From IMG/VR virus record IMGVR_UViG_3300027996_001566, positions 1 to 39,100 of that record: a stretch of DNA of 39,100 nucleotides; one strand, 5' to 3'. The position numbers and the translations under genes are program-made. Below the pieces are notes generated by a model. The model did not search any database, was not told where the DNA came from, and saw nothing but the letters and a program-made list of their open reading frames with translations. Shown piece by piece: positions 29,845 to 39,100 of the stretch. How positions within the stretch are numbered: the first letter of the stretch is position 1; the number at the start of each line of letters is the position of its first letter. This DNA comes from a virus.

Positions 29845-30801
29845 ATGAGTACAAACAACACAAACGGAGAATTTGATCTATTTAATCTTTCATTAGAGGA
29901 TTTTCAAAACAACGAACCGGTAGTCGAAAGAGGACCAGGGCTTTACAAAGCAAATCCGACCGAAGGGAAAGACAACGTCTACAGATCAGTGATCAGATTT
30001 CTACCTAACCCAAAAGATCCTAGAAACAGTATTATTAAAAAATATTCGTACTGGCTTGAGGACTCACAGGGTAATGCCGGTTATTTCGACTGTCCAACAA
30101 CAGTAGGAGAAAAATCAATTATTGGCGATACTTACTGGAAGCTTGCAAAAAGCTCTTCGGCATTCGACCAAAAACAAGCTGAAAAAATCAGAAGAAAGGA
30201 ATATTACTTCTCGGTTATTCAAATTGTTAAAGATCCGCAAAGACCGGAACTAGAAGGAACTCTTCAAGTATTTAGATTTCCAAAAACGCTTAAAAAATTC
30301 ATAGATGCTCAAACATCACCATCTGTTGAAGATATTGAATTGAGTAATGCAGAACCATGTAATGTTTTTGATCTTTTCGAAGGTAAAGACTTTTCATTAA
30401 AAGTAACGCTTAAAGGAGGCTATTGGAATTACGATGAATGTAAATTCTTAAAACTATCTCCAGTTCAAGTAGATAAAGTGGCTATGGAAAATAACAACGA
30501 GTGTAAAGCTCAGATTATGGACTATCTAAAAGGTTCTCCAGATTTGACGGTTTATTACTACAAACCATGGAGCGATGAACAAAGAACTAAATTACATACA
30601 ATATTGCAAGACCTTTCAGGTAATCCTGGATCATCTTATAATAATACATCTAATCCACCTTCTACAAAAACCGAACCAACTAATGATAAACCAAAATCTG
30701 CTATGCAACCTAATACAGATTTTGATACATCTAAAACCGATACCAAATCCGAATCAAGTAATGATGAAGATATGGAAAAATGGTTAAACGGAGTTTCGTA
30801 A
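29845..30801 (+). CDS. 32: Single-stranded DNA-binding protein, T4 gp32-like
   Basis: The 318-aa protein matches gp32 (301 aa) in plan. An N-terminal arm is followed by the core (VYRSVIRFLPNPKDP, then KKYSYWLED, YFDCP, and the conserved FSVIQIVKDPQRPELEGTLQVFRFP). Then come a linker rich in Asn, Pro, Ser and Thr, and an acidic C-terminal tail (SSNDEDMEKWLNGVS) that recruits replication and recombination proteins. The T4 zinc-binding set (one His, three Cys) is not present: only one Cys (in FDCP) lies in that region. gp32 coats single strands at the fork and during strand exchange. It is transcribed after a long non-coding leader region and followed by a strong hairpin, which suggests separate, tunable expression from the primase downstream. 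Confidence 0.85.
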   Translation: MSTNNTNGEFDLFNLSLEDFQNNEPVVERGPGLYKANPTEGKDNVYRSVIRFLPNPKDPRNSIIKKYSYWLEDSQGNAGYFDCPTTVGEKSIIGDTYWKLAKSSSAFDQKQAEKIRRKEYYFSVIQIVKDPQRPELEGTLQVFRFPKTLKKFIDAQTSPSVEDIELSNAEPCNVFDLFEGKDFSLKVTLKGGYWNYDECKFLKLSPVQVDKVAMENNNECKAQIMDYLKGSPDLTVYYYKPWSDEQRTKLHTILQDLSGNPGSSYNNTSNPPSTKTEPTNDKPKSAMQPNTDFDTSKTDTKSESSNDEDMEKWLNGVS

Positions 30802-30812
30802 ATAACTTTTTA

Positions 30813-30847
30813 AGTAGCCCTGATTTATTTGATAAGTCAGGGCTATT
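30813..30847 (+). terminator. Strong hairpin after the gp32 gene
   Basis: A 13-bp stem pairs TAGCCCTGATTTA (30815-30827) with TAAGTCAGGGCTA (30833-30845) across a 5-nt loop, with one G-U pair. It sits 13 nt after the SSB stop and 11 nt before the primase start. No good U-tract follows, so it may be a weak terminator or an mRNA-stabilising 3' hairpin that sets gp32 levels above those of the primase. Confidence 0.7.
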
Positions 30848-30856
30848 AGTTTAAAG

Positions 30857-31921
30857 ATGGAAGATAAAAATAACATATCAGCTAGCCTAAAGGAACGATT
30901 ATTAAGCAAGTTACAATATATTCTTAGTAACGAATTTCATGGTGAAAAGGCTAGAATAAAACAAGGATATGATAGAATTAATTTTGCATGTCCTTATTGT
31001 GGAGATTCTTCAGAAAATCAATATAAGAAGCGAGGTAATCTTTATTGGAAATCATTAATGTTTCATTGTTATAATTGTTCTCATCATACGAGTGTAGTTA
31101 ATTTACTAAAAGATCATAATAATGCATTGAATAGTGTTGAAGACGTTACAAGCGTTTTAGATTATATCGCAGAAAATAGAATTGATACAAAACCTATTGA
31201 ATATCTTCAAGTTGGAGTATTTAAAGGTCTATCTGATTTAGCAATAGATAGATCTGAACTTATGAAACTACTTAACTTAGTTGAAATACAAAAAGGTACA
31301 GTTGCATATACATTTGTTAAAAATAAGTTTTTATTGAATAGACACAAACATTTTGCATGGTCAGATAAAAAGAATCAATTATATGTATTCAATCTATCGA
31401 GAGATAACAAAGTAATAGGATACCAAGTAAGAAATTTTGATACTAATCGAGCTAAATATATTAGTTTCACTATTGAAAAAATTTACAACGAAATTAAACG
31501 AGAACTACCTAAAATCGAAGGTATGGAAAAAATCAATACCCTCTCGCTTTATTATAACATATTGATTGTTGATTTAACAAAAACCTTTACAATATTTGAA
31601 GGCCCTTCTGATGCATTATTATATCCAAGGCAATCAATTGCTCTTAGTGGTGTAAATAAAAATTCAGAAATGTTCGATGAAATTCCAGGTGCAAGATATC
31701 TATTTGATAATGATGCAATTGGTAGAAGAACCATGGAAGGAAAACTTAAACGAAAGAAAAGCGTTTTTATGTGGAGAAAATTCATAAAAGAAAATAAATT
31801 AGACAGAGACATTAAAGATTTTAATGACTTAATAAAGTTTTGTTATTTTGATAGAAATACTGCATATAAAAATATAGATAAATACTTTACAACCAGTCCT
31901 TATGACATTCTTAACATTTAA
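30857..31921 (+). CDS. 61: DNA primase, T4 gp61-like
   Basis: The 354-aa protein has an N-terminal zinc-binding domain with C45-P-Y-C48 and C71-Y-N-C74. A TOPRIM-type catalytic core follows: E248 in TIFEGPSDALL, D284 and D286 in YLFDNDAIGRR, then DIKDFNDLI (318-326). Length is close to T4 gp61 (342 aa), and no helicase domain is attached, so it is a stand-alone primase expected to work with a separate helicase (gp41 in T4). It makes RNA primers for lagging-strand synthesis. It starts shortly after the gp32 hairpin and overlaps the next small gene by 20 nt. Confidence 0.8.
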   Translation: MEDKNNISASLKERLLSKLQYILSNEFHGEKARIKQGYDRINFACPYCGDSSENQYKKRGNLYWKSLMFHCYNCSHHTSVVNLLKDHNNALNSVEDVTSVLDYIAENRIDTKPIEYLQVGVFKGLSDLAIDRSELMKLLNLVEIQKGTVAYTFVKNKFLLNRHKHFAWSDKKNQLYVFNLSRDNKVIGYQVRNFDTNRAKYISFTIEKIYNEIKRELPKIEGMEKINTLSLYYNILIVDLTKTFTIFEGPSDALLYPRQSIALSGVNKNSEMFDEIPGARYLFDNDAIGRRTMEGKLKRKKSVFMWRKFIKENKLDRDIKDFNDLIKFCYFDRNTAYKNIDKYFTTSPYDILNI

Positions 31922-32120
31922 TAAATTTGTGAACGAAGAAATAGACGAATTTTTCCAAGAGGCTGATAAACATGGCAACTTGAAACTACCTGTTGATATT
32001 AATTTCAAAAAAATTAATCATCAAAAGAATTCGTTTATGGTCGAGCCTAAAATGAAAACAACTAAAATAAAGCATAAGAAAACCTGGGAAGGTACTAACA
32101 AAGGCAAAAACTTATTTTAA
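31902..32120 (+). CDS. Small basic protein with capsid-targeting-like N-terminus
   Basis: This 72-aa protein begins MTFLTFNKFVNEE, which aligns with the T4 internal-protein targeting sequence MKTYQEFIAE: T-F-N-K-F-V-N-E against T-Y-Q-E-F-I-A-E. A possible protease site, F-Q-E|A, follows at residues 18-21. The remainder is basic (KTTKIKHKKTWEGTNKGK), as in the DNA-associated internal proteins of T4. It overlaps the primase end by 20 nt and its last base is the first base of the next gene. Function is unknown; a small packaged DNA-binding internal protein is inferred. Confidence 0.5.
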   Translation: MTFLTFNKFVNEEIDEFFQEADKHGNLKLPVDINFKKINHQKNSFMVEPKMKTTKIKHKKTWEGTNKGKNLF

Positions 32121-32557
32121 TGGAATTATCTGAAGACAAATTACAAAAAATAGAAACCTTACTTGAGAAGGATCGAAAGGAATGGTCTGATAATATACAA
32201 AAACTAATTAGAAATATTGGAATCGCTGACCGATTATCAGCTGCTCAAGTAGATATGTTATCTTATAGACATATGATAACTGATAAAATAATAGAATTCA
32301 ATATTATGCTTAACAAGAAGCGTTCTAACGATTCTAACTATACAAAAACTAGATATCAATATTATAAGACAAATCATGACGTTAGATTAGATCATAGAGA
32401 AATAATGGAATATATTAAGTCTGATATGTCATTGAGATCTAGAGAAACTGGTCTTATAGAAAACCAAATATCATATTACAAACAAGCGATAGAAACACTT
32501 GATAAAATGGGATTTGCGATTAAAAATAAAATAACAATAGCTACCAATGATATTTGA
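32120..32557 (+). CDS. uvsY: UvsY-like recombination mediator
   Basis: The 145-aa, helical, basic protein corresponds to T4 UvsY (137 aa), which loads the UvsX recombinase onto gp32-coated single strands. The C-terminal part shows the match: RYQYYKTNHD for UvsY RLDYYSGRGD, a helix, then ISYYKQAIETLDKMGFAIKN for UvsY LQYWGILLDF...IKSRGFAIKH. The shared GFAIK lies at residues 131-135. It directly precedes the uvsW-like helicase and overlaps it by 11 nt; uvsY and uvsW are also close in T4. The comparison is from memory, so an alignment would firm it up. Confidence 0.7.
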   Translation: MELSEDKLQKIETLLEKDRKEWSDNIQKLIRNIGIADRLSAAQVDMLSYRHMITDKIIEFNIMLNKKRSNDSNYTKTRYQYYKTNHDVRLDHREIMEYIKSDMSLRSRETGLIENQISYYKQAIETLDKMGFAIKNKITIATNDI

Positions 32558-34061
32558 TTTAACGCATAATGGTAAATTACTTACATTACGAGATGCCAGT
32601 GAGATCGAAATGGATCAACTTAAAATCACATTAACTCGCAAAATCGATAATTGGAGATGGGATCCTAGAGTTAAAAAGGGTTGGTGGAATGGTGAAATTT
32701 CATATTTTCATAGAGGCCAATATGTGCCTGCAGGACTATGGCAAGTGGTAAGAGATATGTGTAAAGACTATGGATACGAATTACAAATTAATGATCTTAA
32801 AGAAAAGTTTGATAGATCAATTAAATTTGAAGAATTTGAATCGTGGGTAAAAGAAAAATTTGAAGGCCACGAACTAACCCCAAGACCTTATCAAATAGAA
32901 ACGGCATATAATATCATTAAAAATAAATGTTGTTTAGCTGAACTGGCTACATCCGCAGGAAAATCACTGATATTATATATTGTGTTAGCTCATCTATTAG
33001 AAACTAAGAAAGCTGAAAAGATTTTAATGATCGTTCCTAATGTAAGCCTTGTGGTTCAAGCAACCGAAGATTTTTATGAATATAATCGAGGATCACTAGA
33101 TTTAGATATTGAGATTCAACAAATATTTGCAGGTTCTAAAATTAGAAAGGGCGCTAATATCGTTATTGGAACTTATCAATCGTTAGTTAAAAAGAAGGAA
33201 GAGTATTTTGATGAATACACAACAGTCATGGTTGATGAAACTCATAAAGCTAAAGCAGTTTCGATTAAAAATATCTTAGAAAAATGCACTAAAGCAGACC
33301 GAGTATTTGGTGTTAGTGGAACCATTCCTAAACCAGATTCATTAGATAGATTAACATTAATGTCTTATACCGGCCCAGTTATATCTAAAATAACAGCAGC
33401 TGAATTAATAAAGGATAATTACATATCTCCAGTTGAGGTTAAAGTAATTGAAATGAATTATGCCCCAGAGTCTGTTAGAGAATCCTTTAAATTTCTTACA
33501 AAAACCCAAGAAGATAGAAAACGACTTTTAAACTTAGAGCAAAACTATGTAATACAAGATAAAACTCGATTAGATTTTGTAACAGATACAGTTCTTAAAA
33601 TAAAGAAGAATCAATTAGTGTTATTCTTCAGAGTTGATTATGGAAGGCTTATGTATGATACTATTCGTAATAAGACAACTAGACGAGTTTTTTATATCGA
33701 TGGAGGCACAGATAAAAACCTAAGAGAAGAATATAAAGCACAGATGGAAGAAGGCGAAGATAAGATCTTAATTGCATCATTTGGAACATTCTCAACAGGA
33801 ATAAATGTAAAAAATCTTCATTATGTTTCGTTAACCGAGTCATTCAAATCTGATGTTATTATTAGACAATCTATTGGCCGTGGTTTAAGAAAGCATGAAA
33901 CTAAAGATAGACTTACTATATTAGATTTTGTAGATGATTTTCGCATACAAGGTTTTATCAATTATCTTTATAGACATTCCAAAGTTCGTCGAGAAATATA
34001 TGATGAACAAAAATTTCCGTATGAAATTAAAAGTATAGATTTGACTAAGATATATAATTAA
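32547..34061 (+). CDS. uvsW: UvsW-type SF2 DNA/RNA helicase
   Basis: The 504-aa protein matches T4 UvsW (503 aa) in length and motifs. RPYQ (113-116) is the Q-like motif. ATSAGKS (134-140) is the Walker A motif. VMVDETHK (228-234) is the DExH box and SGT (257-259) is motif III. GTFSTGINV and QSIGRGLRK (near 440-450) are motifs V and VI. The N-terminal ~100 residues form the UvsW DNA-binding domain (WDPRVKKGWWNG). UvsW unwinds R-loops and branched DNA and drives branch migration, shifting T4 from origin-dependent to recombination-dependent replication. It follows the UvsY-like gene and is the last replication gene here. Confidence 0.9.
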   Translation: MIFDLTHNGKLLTLRDASEIEMDQLKITLTRKIDNWRWDPRVKKGWWNGEISYFHRGQYVPAGLWQVVRDMCKDYGYELQINDLKEKFDRSIKFEEFESWVKEKFEGHELTPRPYQIETAYNIIKNKCCLAELATSAGKSLILYIVLAHLLETKKAEKILMIVPNVSLVVQATEDFYEYNRGSLDLDIEIQQIFAGSKIRKGANIVIGTYQSLVKKKEEYFDEYTTVMVDETHKAKAVSIKNILEKCTKADRVFGVSGTIPKPDSLDRLTLMSYTGPVISKITAAELIKDNYISPVEVKVIEMNYAPESVRESFKFLTKTQEDRKRLLNLEQNYVIQDKTRLDFVTDTVLKIKKNQLVLFFRVDYGRLMYDTIRNKTTRRVFYIDGGTDKNLREEYKAQMEEGEDKILIASFGTFSTGINVKNLHYVSLTESFKSDVIIRQSIGRGLRKHETKDRLTILDFVDDFRIQGFINYLYRHSKVRREIYDEQKFPYEIKSIDLTKIYN

Positions 34062-34652: not shown

Positions 34653-35567
34653 ATGGCACTAGCAAAATTTTCAAAATTTAAAAAAGAAAGATCTGTTATA
34701 AAAGAAGCACGATCTAAAGAGAAAAAAATCAAATCGTTTCAAAAGCTCTTCAATGAGAAGTTAGGTGAACTTGGGTTATCTTCAACAGCAGATTTATCAG
34801 AAGATCAAATTAATAAAGTACTAGCTTCACTAGCAACGGTTAATGAAGATCGTATGAGAGAGATCGAAAAAGATGGAATCATTGCTGGAACTCCTAAACC
34901 TGCAGGAACTGAAGGTGAGGTTGCAAAGAAACATACATTCGATTCACCACAAGTCGTTGATGCTGAATCTGAATCTGATGCTGAAGGTATGAAAGCAGAA
35001 GAATCAGTTAAAGAATCTAAGAAATCAGTTAAAGAAAATGGTACTGAGGGTGAAGATGACGAAGAAAAGGCAGCTCATTATAAAGATGCTGCTAAAGATG
35101 ATTATTCTCAAATAGCTAAACTTAAAAAAGATGCACATGACGATAAAGAATCTGAAGACCATGAAGAGGAAGAGGAAGCTAATGAAGGTACAGTTGAAGA
35201 TATACGAACTAATCTAATTGATAAACCTATAGCAAAAATAAAAGACCTATATAAAAAATATATAGGAAATGACCCTGCAAAAAATATTGCAGGAAATGCT
35301 AAAGCTATGGTTACTATGATTGCAACAATGGCTGCAGAAAATAAAGAACTTGCAAGCAAATTATTAAGTGAATCATCTATAGTTGAAGCCGCGGATATTA
35401 AATCTGATGCTGATTTTGATAAATATGCAGATGACCTTTTAAAGAAGGCACATCCAGATGATTTCGATGAAGCTACTGCTAAAAAAGTTAAAGATGGTCT
35501 TAAGAAAAAGTACAAAGATGATTATGGTGCTATGGTTGGTGCTTTAACATCAGGATTCGGCGGATAA
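34653..35567 (+). CDS. Highly charged putative internal head/core protein
   Basis: The 304-aa protein begins MALAKFSKFKKERS and has a T4 gp21-like cleavage site I-K-E|A at residues 16-19. The first part resembles the T4 capsid-targeting sequence in the spacing of its aromatic residues (KFSKFKKE against TYQEFIAE). A long acidic, Glu/Ser/Lys-rich middle (about 97-180) follows. A second site, I-V-E|A (243-246), precedes a compact C-terminal domain (ADFDKYADDLLKKAHPDDF, then GAMVGALTSGFGG). Charged bodies with multiple I/L-x-E sites are typical of prohead core and internal proteins. The function is inferred; a scaffold-core component or packaged protein is likely. Confidence 0.5.
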   Translation: MALAKFSKFKKERSVIKEARSKEKKIKSFQKLFNEKLGELGLSSTADLSEDQINKVLASLATVNEDRMREIEKDGIIAGTPKPAGTEGEVAKKHTFDSPQVVDAESESDAEGMKAEESVKESKKSVKENGTEGEDDEEKAAHYKDAAKDDYSQIAKLKKDAHDDKESEDHEEEEEANEGTVEDIRTNLIDKPIAKIKDLYKKYIGNDPAKNIAGNAKAMVTMIATMAAENKELASKLLSESSIVEAADIKSDADFDKYADDLLKKAHPDDFDEATAKKVKDGLKKKYKDDYGAMVGALTSGFGG

Positions 35568-35592: not shown

Positions 35593-36750
35593 ATGGCACA
35601 AAAAATGATGAGATTCGATACATTCCATGAATGGCAAAGAATCATGGAAGATTCTGATTCCAATATAGAATTGCTATCACTTAATGAAGCATTTTCTTCA
35701 GATTATTTAAGAAAGTTCAGCGGCCAAGAAAGCGGTAATAGATGGGCAAATAAATTTGCAAAAGATTTCTATAAGTTTTCGAGTGTTCCTTTAGATAAAA
35801 TTACAAACGAAGACTTTATTATACTTTCAAATCCAACTGAATGGTGGACTCAGGGATATGCAAAAAATAATAGTGCAATTGGATTCTTTGTGGATGATTC
35901 TCCAGAATTGTTTAAAGCCCTGAAGGATAGGAAAAAGGAAAAAAATGCAGCAGGGGTAGGTATAATTCTTACTATCATGCGAGGAAACCGCGGAATGTGG
36001 TACGGATTTGCTCAAGATCCAGGAGTTTCATACAGACATAAAAAGAGCCCAACCGAAAGATATGGTATTCTTGCAGATGAATATAAAACTGCCGGTGTTT
36101 ATGGTTGGGATGGCGCTAAACAAAAAGCAAAAATCACTAAACCTAATCTTATTGAAATGGCTACTAAGGTGTATGTTTTAGATATGGCTATTTTGAGAGA
36201 GAAATATGGGACTATTAAAGATCTACAACATAAAAGAGCAGAAGCTAAATCTGGTGCAGTTGCAATGGAAACCGCTGAAAGTTTTAGAAGACAACAAGCA
36301 TCGAGATACGATCAAATTCTTAAAGACAAGTTAGATCCGAATATAATGCTTAAAGATGTTAAAGGTGCTTTAGCTGATTATACTACTTGGATGTCTAAGC
36401 AGATATCAGATCTTAAATTTGATCCAAAGGCCAAAGCATCTGACAATTTCTATAAAGAAATGCAAGTTAATTGGAGTGGATGGGAGTCTGATTGGTCTAG
36501 ACCTCTTAATCATATGTTAGATGTTCTTAATAAATTTATGAGATCATGGAACGATTATTTAAGAGATCAAGCAAAAGTTGAAGATCTCATTAAAAAGATG
36601 GAATCTGAGGATGATGATCAAAAAGTTATCAGACTTAAAAGCGAAATATCTTATTATGAAGGTGGTTACAAAAGATTTGTAGCAGAAACCGTTAAATATA
36701 GAGATGATTTAAGAACATATGTAAATAATGTTAAAAAGATAACCTCATAA
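35593..36750 (+). CDS. Unknown protein with capsid-targeting-like N-terminus
   Basis: The 385-aa product begins MAQKMMRFDTFHEWQ, where TFHEWQ aligns with the T4 targeting core TYQEFI. A candidate cleavage site L-N-E|A follows at residues 30-33. Residues about 40-200 form an alpha/beta domain with WWTQGYAKNNSAIGFFVDD and GIILTIMRGNRGMWYGFAQD. The C-terminal half is helical (HMLDVLNKFMRSWNDYLRD and a charged coiled coil near 320-385). I do not recognise the domain; no catalytic motif is clear. Its stop is followed directly by the ATG of the ligase-like gene, so the two are probably co-translated. It may be a packaged effector. Confidence 0.5.
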   Translation: MAQKMMRFDTFHEWQRIMEDSDSNIELLSLNEAFSSDYLRKFSGQESGNRWANKFAKDFYKFSSVPLDKITNEDFIILSNPTEWWTQGYAKNNSAIGFFVDDSPELFKALKDRKKEKNAAGVGIILTIMRGNRGMWYGFAQDPGVSYRHKKSPTERYGILADEYKTAGVYGWDGAKQKAKITKPNLIEMATKVYVLDMAILREKYGTIKDLQHKRAEAKSGAVAMETAESFRRQQASRYDQILKDKLDPNIMLKDVKGALADYTTWMSKQISDLKFDPKAKASDNFYKEMQVNWSGWESDWSRPLNHMLDVLNKFMRSWNDYLRDQAKVEDLIKKMESEDDDQKVIRLKSEISYYEGGYKRFVAETVKYRDDLRTYVNNVKKITS

Positions 36751-38055
36751 ATGTTTCTAAAATTCAGTCAATATATAAATGAATCCATCCAAATCGAGCT
36801 ATCTGAGATTTTATTCGAAGGTGGCTCTTTTGGACATATGGCACATCCATACGATGATATAGATCTTACATTCTCTGAAATAAAAAATCTCATCTCAGCT
36901 GCGTTACAAGGTGGTTTAGATAAAGAAGTTATACCAACCGAAAAATTAGATGGCCAAGCGATTGCTGTTTCATGGCGAAATGGAGAATTAATTGCATCTA
37001 GAAATCAAGGTGATCGTAAAAATGCTGGTGCATCTTCAATGACAGTACAACAAGTTATAGATAAATTTGCTGGTCGCGGAGAAATTAGTGATGCATTTTC
37101 ATTTGCAATTCAAGATCTTTCTAAAGCTATTTCAAAAATCAATCCTAAAAAACGAGAGAAGATATTCAATAATGGAAAATCTTTTATGCATTTAGAATTG
37201 ATATATCCGCCAACTACGAATGTTGTTAATTATGATGCATATAAATTAATCTTTCATAATACATCTGATTATGATATGGATGGTAAAGAAATTGGCCAAG
37301 ATAAAAAAGCTGCTGCAGTTCTTACAAAATTAATTAAAGAAGTTAATGCAGATATTCAAAATACTTATCAAATAGATCCACCAAAAGCTATACAGTTTTC
37401 TAAGAATATAAATTATGAGGCAGATCGTGAGAAATTTTTTAAAGAGCTAGCACAAGTCCAAAAAAACGCCGGAATGACAGATAATCAAACAATCCAAGAT
37501 TATATAAAAAGAGAATTTACTCGATTATTCCAACAACAAGCGGCTAGAGACGGTTATGATTTAGAAGATAATATATTAGATGGAATGATTAAAAGATTTG
37601 CATTTTTAGATAATTCATTTTCTATTAGACATATCAAACGAGAAATATCAAACGAAGATTATAAAGAGTGGGTATTAGACTTTGCAGCAAATAAAGGAAA
37701 AAAAGCTGCAGCATATTACAAAAAGGTAATTGGACCTATAGAAGTATTGTTTTTAAAATTAGGCACAACTGTAATAAAAAATGCTACAGGATTCTTAGCG
37801 GTAAACCCAGACAAAGAAACCGAACGAATAAAACAGGAACTTGAATCTGCGATTAAAAAAGTCAGAGCATCTGGAAGTGAAGCTGAGGTAAATAAACTTG
37901 AGCAGAACTTTAGAAAGTTAGAAGCCATTGGTGGATTTGACTCAGTAGTTCCAACGGAGGGATTTGTATTCCAACACAAAGGCAAGACATATAAAATGAC
38001 TGGTTCATTTGCACCGGTAAACCAAATACTTGGCGTAATCAAATACATGAAATAA
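36751..38055 (+). CDS. Nucleotidyltransferase (DNA/RNA ligase-like) with capsid-targeting-like N-terminus
   Basis: The 434-aa protein carries the covalent nucleotidyltransferase motifs. K65 lies in TEKLDGQAI (motif I, K-x-D-G) and R84 in SRNQG. E149 lies in FMHLELIYPP (motif III). E403-G404 lie in TEGFVF (motif IV) and K415 in YKMTGSF (motif V). A helical insertion of about 200 residues separates III and IV. A GGSFGHMAHPYDD segment just before the domain recalls ligase-like proteins of other T4-type marine phages. It starts MFLKFSQYINES, a close match to MKTYQEFIAEA, with a possible cleavage site L-F-E|G at 21-24. It would seal or end-modify nucleic acid; delivery in the capsid is inference. 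A stand-alone C-terminal OB domain is not evident. Confidence 0.65.
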   Translation: MFLKFSQYINESIQIELSEILFEGGSFGHMAHPYDDIDLTFSEIKNLISAALQGGLDKEVIPTEKLDGQAIAVSWRNGELIASRNQGDRKNAGASSMTVQQVIDKFAGRGEISDAFSFAIQDLSKAISKINPKKREKIFNNGKSFMHLELIYPPTTNVVNYDAYKLIFHNTSDYDMDGKEIGQDKKAAAVLTKLIKEVNADIQNTYQIDPPKAIQFSKNINYEADREKFFKELAQVQKNAGMTDNQTIQDYIKREFTRLFQQQAARDGYDLEDNILDGMIKRFAFLDNSFSIRHIKREISNEDYKEWVLDFAANKGKKAAAYYKKVIGPIEVLFLKLGTTVIKNATGFLAVNPDKETERIKQELESAIKKVRASGSEAEVNKLEQNFRKLEAIGGFDSVVPTEGFVFQHKGKTYKMTGSFAPVNQILGVIKYMK

Positions 38056-38212: not shown

Positions 38213-39100
38213 ATGAGATTTAAAAACTTCCACAAAAGCAAACCTATAGTACAGAATGTAAAAACTAATTCTGTTAATGAAGGTATTGCACCGAAAACCC
38301 TAACAATGGCCAATGATATTAGTGAATGGAATCCTGGAATATCTCATGACCAATTAAATGAAGCTGGTGAAAAGGGTAAAGGTAAGGGAAATGCCTCTGC
38401 ATCTGCTCCAACAAGTTATTCAGAAGAATCAGAAACTCGAATCGTAATAGCAGATTCGAAACGAGCTATAAAAAAATCTTTGGACAAGATCAAAGATTTA
38501 AAACAAAGAGTTCAAGCCAATCAAGAAAAATTTGATAATCAAGATGATATGATATCAGATATGGAAACAAAGGTAAATCAGATAAAGGATGCCGTGAATA
38601 CTCTCGATGACAAAATCAGTAATTCAAAAAATGAAATATCAGCTACTCAGAGGGATATTAATGCAGCTAAAGATAAAGGCGATGAAATGACACAAAAAGA
38701 TCTTGAGAAGCAAATGGCTCATCTTAAAGATGAAGTTAAACATAATGAAACTATACGGACAGAAAAAGCTAATGAGTTAACTAATCAAACTAAAGCTCTT
38801 GCTTCTCAAGAATCTGAGAAATCTTCATTAAAGAGGCAAATTGCTTCTACAGAAAAGGAAATAGACTCTAACTCTAAAATTATTCAAAAAGCAAATGACG
38901 CTATAGAAAGAATGGAAGCTCGTTCAAAGAGCAAAGAAGATCCAAAGAAAGAAGAGCCAAAAGACGATCCTAAGGAAGATCCAAAAGAGGAGCCAAAAGA
39001 CGATCCTAAGGAAGATCCAAAAGAGGAGCCTAAAGACGATCCTAAGGAAGATCCAAAAGAGGAGCCTAAAGACGATCCTAAGGAAGATCCAAAAGAGGAG
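38213..39100 (+). CDS. Coiled-coil head/core-like protein with tandem acidic repeats (partial, 3' end cut)
   Basis: The frame is open to the window end (296 codons seen, no stop), so the C-terminus is missing. The N-terminus MRFKNFHKSK resembles the aromatic start of the neighbouring putative internal proteins. Candidate gp21-type sites are V-N-E|G (21-24) and L-N-E|A (48-51). Residues about 75-240 are a long, highly charged coiled coil. From residue 247 a 12-residue unit (EEPKDDPKEDPK) repeats at least four times. A charged coiled coil with cleavage sites is expected for a prohead scaffold such as T4 gp22 or a core protein, though no direct homology is visible. It has its own candidate promoter. 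Confidence 0.55.
   Translation, partial: MRFKNFHKSKPIVQNVKTNSVNEGIAPKTLTMANDISEWNPGISHDQLNEAGEKGKGKGNASASAPTSYSEESETRIVIADSKRAIKKSLDKIKDLKQRVQANQEKFDNQDDMISDMETKVNQIKDAVNTLDDKISNSKNEISATQRDINAAKDKGDEMTQKDLEKQMAHLKDEVKHNETIRTEKANELTNQTKALASQESEKSSLKRQIASTEKEIDSNSKIIQKANDAIERMEARSKSKEDPKKEEPKDDPKEDPKEEPKDDPKEDPKEEPKDDPKEDPKEEPKDDPKEDPKEE
38951..39100 (+). repeat. 36-bp in-frame tandem repeat encoding acidic Pro/Lys units
   Basis: Four nearly identical 36-base copies (38951-38986, 38987-39022, 39023-39058, 39059-39094) and the first six bases of a fifth. Copies 3 and 4 are identical; copies 1 and 2 differ by one or two bases. Each encodes (E/K)EPKDDPKEDPK-type residues. Near-identity at DNA level points to recent expansion, and the array may continue beyond the window. 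Confidence 0.9.

Follow-up and report, generated by a model that had tools for sequence, protein, structure and literature searches.

A divergent RNA-ligase-fold nucleotidyltransferase with a capsid-targeting-like tag as the putative half of a two-enzyme module of T4-like phages

Which enzyme is encoded near the end of the virus record IMGVR_UViG_3300027996_001566, and would it travel inside the capsid? The window, that is, the whole stretch of DNA analysed here, was the 39.1-kb record (positions 1 to 39,100), and the gene in question is an open reading frame (ORF) of 434 aa, hereafter the target, for which a preliminary description had proposed a ligase-like nucleotidyltransferase packaged in the capsid. 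With modest confidence, we lean towards a divergent covalent nucleotidyltransferase of RNA-ligase fold that belongs, in T4-like phages, to a conserved module of two enzymes, in which its partner would be a HIGH-type adenylyltransferase resembling NMNAT/PPAT. The lysine K65 would become loaded with a nucleotide, most probably adenosine monophosphate (AMP), and pass it to nucleic-acid ends, most likely those of RNA, and the outcome would be the repair of RNA cut by host defences.

Catalytic motifs and family of the target

The target and its motifs were located as follows.

36751..38055, + strand: RNA-ligase-like nucleotidyltransferase ORF, 434 aa, ATG start (conserved in 71 IMG/VR loci and three GenBank phage records)
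36835..36858, + strand: family signature HMAHPYDD, H29-D36 (family alignment)
36940..36954, + strand: motif I, E64-K65-L-D-G68, with K65 the expected nucleotide-bearing lysine (75/75 members)
37000..37005, + strand: motif Ia-like R84-N85 (R84 invariant)
37183..37212, + strand: motif III, FMHLELIYPP (E149 invariant)
37255..37272, + strand: motif IIIa-like H169..Y174 (Y174 invariant, H169 nearly invariant)
37957..37971, + strand: motif IV, E403-G-F-V-F407 (family alignment)
37990..38004, + strand: motif V, Y414-K-M-T-G418 (family alignment)

The motifs from which a nucleotidyltransferase had been proposed, KLDG (K65), LEL (E149), TEGFVF (E403-G404) and YKMTG (K415), were all present with their catalytic residues conserved; E64, K65, D67, G68, R84, E149, E403, G404, V406, K415, T417 and G418 were invariant in 18 aligned diverse members, and the acidic residues of motifs III and IV (E149, E403) stood in the superfamily order in these 18 rows. 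EKxDG, which contains the K-x-D-G of superfamily motif I, was found in 75/75 extracted family proteins, a set that contains near-identical and contig-end-cut sequences, and a chance motif was rejected on the basis of this conservation. The motif IV-V block was recovered in 71 of the 75, contig-end-cut sequences included. The GenBank phage records with relatives were LR756500, Microcystis phage Mel-JY01 and LR756508. A nucleotide search of the target region against phages returned nothing, and the ATP-dependent DNA ligase family PF01068 was unmatched in the window record. Pfam RNA_ligase (PF09414) did not match the target, and its relative L004 scored 14.0 bits against a curated cut-off of 27. 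Matches of phmmer and profile searches in PDB sequences (such as designed repeat proteins, SMC3 and DarA) left the motif set uncovered and were taken as chance.

Predicted fold

37414..37926, + strand: all-helical insertion, residues 222-392, ~170 residues (DSSP of the AlphaFold2 model)

An AlphaFold2 model of the target was built from an alignment of 20 sequences and obtained a predicted local distance difference test score (pLDDT) of 80.9, with residues 1-28 below 50. When the model was compared by VIA-align, the top match was the Naegleria RNA ligase (Z 8.4, root-mean-square deviation 4.0, 184 aligned); RNA ligases filled the first 20 rows, and 49/50 rows were ligases or capping enzymes, with DnaK as the one outlier. 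The best PDB rows by Foldseek were T4 Rnl1, fungal Trl1 and archaeal RNA ligases, with a best E of 3.5e-3. The ligase-like assignment was thus borne out at the level of structure prediction, and judging from the model the target is almost certainly a covalent nucleotidyltransferase with a divergent RNA-ligase-type fold. The insertion between motifs III and IV, earlier called unusual, was recovered in the model as helices 222-392 that sit between E149 and E403. Only 16 residues remain beyond motif V, so the domain found there in other ligases is absent, and the inserted helices may take its place.

Like the Rnl families (T4 RNA ligase 1, RNA ligase 2 and Naegleria RNA ligase), the target has a predicted nucleotidyltransferase core with motifs I, III, IV and V in order. 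It differs from them in the helical insertion before motif IV, in having nothing after motif V, in its capsid-type tag and single motif V lysine, and in being without a sequence-level match to PDB or Pfam RNA_ligase.

Capsid-targeting tag and prohead-protease site

36751..36783, + strand: T4-type capsid-targeting-like tag, residues 1-11 (F5, Y8, I9, E11; pattern match in the T4 register)
36811..36819, + strand: L21-F22-E23, putative prohead-protease site right before G24-G25, the start of the conserved domain (family conservation, pLDDT)
31902..32120, + strand: 72-aa ORF, the second window protein fitting the tag pattern (FNKFVNE; pattern scan)

The capsid-targeting sequence (CTS) of T4 is described in the available text of PMC9026906 as the first 10 residues of IPIII, in which positions 4 and 7 act in targeting and positions 8 and 10 in processing. 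In the target, F5, Y8, I9 and E11 correspond to these four positions (aromatic, aromatic, aliphatic and acidic). T4 IPII and IPIII likewise carry the tag residues at 4, 7, 8 and 10 together with a glutamate-directed cleavage site, but these T4 proteins are small and without a nucleotidyltransferase domain, whereas the tag of the target sits on a predicted enzyme. The pattern [FYW]..[FYW][LIVM].[ED] inside the first 24 residues was fixed when the N-terminal sequences of the target and of L002, L004 and L007 were already known, and with the T4 CTS in view; T4, the cyanophage S-SM1, LR756500 and Mel-JY01 were tested once it was fixed, LR756500 containing L002 itself. The targeting-sequence match claimed for the target held up, being one of two among the 29 window ORFs scored.

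Among larger records, 11/128 ORFs of G001 carried the pattern, against 1.6 expected from internal windows and 0.6 from shuffles (binomial 8e-7), and 28/585 ORFs of LR756500 did so, against 5.5 and 4.4 respectively (0/200 shuffles; binomial 7e-12). G001, G002, W01 and W02 were read in 20-kb pieces, and ORFs cut where two pieces meet were lost from these counts, and W01 (LR756500) was covered to base 460000 of 462018. As a control, the pattern selected 2/61 ORFs in T4 60-109 kb, namely IPII and IPIII, while IPI did not fit. All four distinct full-length standalone members of the family begin with the tag. Members of the clade of the target are probably packaged in the capsid. It was also observed in LR756500 that about two dozen ORFs (L101-L123) have near-alike MKYI.EYE.FL.E starts, several followed by leucine-rich-looking repeats; they may form a putative large set of injected proteins.

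T4 gp21 cleaves after L/I-x-E according to the same available text (PMC9026906), and the N-terminal region of the target offers three such sites, INE11, LSE19 and LFE23. [LI]xE stood directly before the domain-opening G-G in 72/74 members with the family signature. In 43 unique site contexts position -3 was L/I in 43/43 and position -1 was E in 42/43, with -2 free; as background, L/I-x-E preceded just 10/942 G-G pairs in the proteins of five records. The L097 protein begins with MGG, exactly at the start of the predicted mature form. A gp21-like (S77) prohead protease was found in 8/9 records and none in the window, a fragment. Cleavage in the prohead would presumably remove the tag or the HIGH partner. 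In L070:5212-7227, an N-terminal region of zinc-finger/HNH-like look takes the place of the HIGH domain, and the site before the domain reads LTC-GG instead of LTE-GG.

The HIGH-type partner enzyme

Two features go beyond the preliminary description: the HIGH adenylyltransferase that recurs as a partner, and the L/I-x-E site ahead of the domain. A HIGH-type nucleotidyltransferase motif was found N-terminal to the target-type domain in 52/75 extracted proteins, and those without it were mostly contig-end-cut or belonged to the standalone clade; L096 and L097 have the reversed fusion order, ligase-like then HIGH. In the standalone clade, of which L002, L004 and L007 were inspected, the HIGH domain lies in a downstream gene, after a gap of 31 bp in LR756500, ~1 kb in G002 and ~2.5 kb in G001. 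This second gene (L077:18084-19823, L083:7736-9442, L002:11292-13253), viewed by eye in G001, G002 and W01, appears to encode a degenerate-looking nucleotidyltransferase (motif I KLNG / KNNG / NLDG) with a C-terminal HIGH domain. The second-gene protein P0002 has few close relatives, and profile-profile comparison gave no link between the target family and the second gene. No second nucleotidyltransferase-like plus HIGH gene follows the target within the window, which ends ~1 kb downstream. The best match of the HIGH-domain profile was the archaeal NMNAT MJ0541 (E 5e-8), followed by PPAT and other NMNAT structures, and by sequence profile the partner resembles an NMNAT/PPAT-like adenylyltransferase.

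Of 50 loci that extend 4.5 kb or more past the target-type gene, 45 have TerL just downstream of it; the other five are standalone members. Since canonical DNA or RNA ligases are also encoded in LR756500 (W01), LR756508 (W03) and G004, the target family is an extra enzyme, and a role as the replicative ligase was rejected. The ligase-like plus HIGH fusion L097:8007-10418 lies in a 2.8-Mb WOR-3 chromosome record with flanks that look cellular by eye (coaBC-, purN-, surE- and def-like), which may indicate a phage remnant, an assembly join or cellular use. Two multi-domain proteins with the target-type domain, L065:2908-7203 (1431 aa) and L092:835-6558 (1907 aa), were seen upstream of TerL, with an architecture resembling that of polyvalent injected proteins, and L003 additionally has a ParB-like domain.

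Polyvalent injected phage proteins are, like the target family, enzymes of several domains for which packaging and injection are predicted (PMC5512222); unlike the target family, an RNA ligase paired with a HIGH enzyme is not described among them in the available text of that source. The same pair was not described in the accessible parts of reviews on NAD+ systems, jumbo phages and polyvalent proteins. A literature search found no publication that connects an RNA ligase to a phage cytidyl(yl)transferase, and a T4 review was the sole paper found that covers both capsid targeting and cyanophage.

The cyanophage GC71/GC190 pair

A second pair of this kind was recognised in cyanophages, in which GC71 and GC190 (phrog_455 and phrog_395; SSM1_189 and SSM1_190 in S-SM1) likewise join an RNA-ligase-like fold, adjoining or fused, to a HIGH enzyme. 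According to the available text of Sullivan et al. (PMC3037559), 41 proteins were found in purified S-SM1 virions, one of them the putative citidylyltransferase T4-GC190, and the GC190 of S-PM2 had escaped detection in the virion of that phage. The S-SM1 GC190 protein is SSM1_190, a HIGH enzyme whose N-terminus, MKKFSAFLNEA, fits the target-type tag; it was the sole match among the 51 S-SM1 ORFs sampled. The S-PM2 GC190 is without the tag, and the pattern matched 0/190 S-PM2 ORFs sampled. The tag was present in 80/80 GC190 relatives (the best 80 of 126 loci), with the residue before E the most variable; these N-termini comprise 13 distinct 14-mers and are not independent, because all are at least 74% identical. 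Because mass spectrometry detected the same-tagged partner in S-SM1 virions (PMC3037559, available text), the targeting-sequence reading gains indirect published support.

GC71 lies directly upstream of GC190, with a KWDG motif upstream in 67/70 loci with enough upstream DNA, and phrog_455 covers both as a single chain. The GC71 model had a pLDDT of 73.1 and placed RNA ligases first (Z 7.2), with 50/50 rows being ligases; in the viral fold library, Foldseek matched it to A0A6J5MBE6 and A0A6J5MCV5 (E ~6e-6), which are also the closest fold matches of the target there. Profile comparison linked GC71 neither to the target family nor to the second gene of the standalone clade. GC71 occurs in 469 phage records under the PHROG annotation 'unknown function'. 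Its motif I is KWDG as against K[LT]DG in the target family, and the pair carries the tag on its HIGH protein rather than on the ligase-like one. By eye, GC71 has HLEHPED as a counterpart of H29-D36. In S-PM2 (L138:11025-12804) GC71 and GC190 lie in different frames of AJ630128, whereas the viral fold library includes an S-PM2 protein of 591 aa; the older record may thus contain a sequencing error, or the split may be genuine.

Alternative explanations

Several results weigh against the two-enzyme RNA reading. RNA repair is read from the modelled fold alone, and Foldseek against PDB gave no row at E <= 1e-3 for the target. The target is also without a Pfam match, and scans of PHROGs and NCBIfam were empty. 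Motif V of covalent nucleotidyltransferases normally is K-x-K with two lysines; here it has the single lysine K415, with T at position 417 in 18/18 rows. Enrichment of the tag was marginal in the window (2/29 ORFs, p 0.04) and not significant in G002 (3/68) or Mel-JY01 (3/224), and many fused relatives (L009 type) start directly at the HIGH domain, without an N-terminal tag. The protein detected in S-SM1 virions is the HIGH enzyme GC190 and not the ligase-like protein. For the target protein itself, we infer packaging, cleavage, activity and substrate.

An ordinary, unpackaged late RNA or DNA ligase-like enzyme acting inside the cell, in which the N-terminal pattern forms a helix for protein docking or structure, would suit the untagged fused relatives, and replication genes are indeed nearby: ORFs for a gp32-like single-stranded DNA-binding protein, a primase-like and a UvsW-like protein occupy 29845-34061, just 2.7-7 kb upstream. 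The packaged-ligase interpretation kept its predicted nucleotidyltransferase fold and its targeting sequence and lost the argument that the gene is far from replication genes. We nevertheless consider such an enzyme rather unlikely, since the tag fits the T4 determinants position by position and is far above chance in G001 and LR756500, a virion protein detected by mass spectrometry (GC190) bears it, and L/I-x-E precedes the domain in nearly all members. A DNA substrate, with sealing of nicks or protection of ends of the incoming genome just after injection, is compatible with the ligase-type fold and motifs, and delivery alongside DNA is plausible. ATP-dependent DNA ligases, however, carry behind motif V an OB domain that contains motif VI; because this domain is absent, DNA ligase identity was rejected. 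As RNA ligases are also the closest folds and W01 and G004 encode separate canonical DNA ligases, a DNA role appears quite improbable.

Modification of small molecules or proteins (economy of nicotinamide adenine dinucleotide, NAD+, or AMPylation), in which the two enzymes share a nucleotide metabolite and not nucleic-acid ends, draws on the frequent pairing with an NMNAT/PPAT-like enzyme and on documented phage rebuilding of NAD+ (PMC9503650, available part). Against it stand the predicted fold of the target, which is that of polynucleotide ligases, and a HIGH domain whose profile matches both NMNAT and PPAT structures; we regard this option as unlikely. RNA ends as the substrate are tentatively suggested by the modelled fold. 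A bolder combination would be a head-carried cassette in which the NMNAT-like enzyme makes NAD+ from nicotinamide mononucleotide and the RNA-ligase-fold enzyme uses NAD+, not ATP, as adenylate donor via the family-specific HxxHPxD element, mending or capping RNA at entry; fused members would be made as one chain and separated by the prohead protease in the head. We hold this to be a speculative long shot.

Neighbouring genes in the window

Three ORFs around the target were recorded.

34653..35567, + strand: neighbour, 304 aa, N-terminus MALAKFSKFKKERSVIKEA (G001 and G002 probably have a similar gene here)
35593..36750, + strand: upstream neighbour, 385 aa, with a looser tag-like N-terminus and an LNE-AF site (a similar gene presumably occupies this position in G001 and G002)
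38213..39100, + strand: downstream ORF with the tag-like start MRFKNFHKSK..., running past the window end (ORF list)

The last stretch of the downstream ORF (38900-39100) consists of tandem acidic/lysine-rich repeat units (EDPKEEPKDDPK) which run off the window.

Implications

Taken as a two-enzyme module with an RNA-ligase-fold member, these results suggest that many T4-like phages inject such a kit with their DNA. GC71, a marine cyanophage core gene, and the jumbo-phage-type target would then become ligase-fold enzymes tied to a virion-associated adenylyltransferase, and the tag pattern would offer a simple means of listing candidate injected proteins in T4-like jumbo phages. If the NAD+ reading were true, the virion would deliver an RNA-end enzyme that is driven by NAD+ and self-recycling. 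Injection of the pair would mean that the phage acts on host RNA or nucleotides ahead of any phage gene expression.
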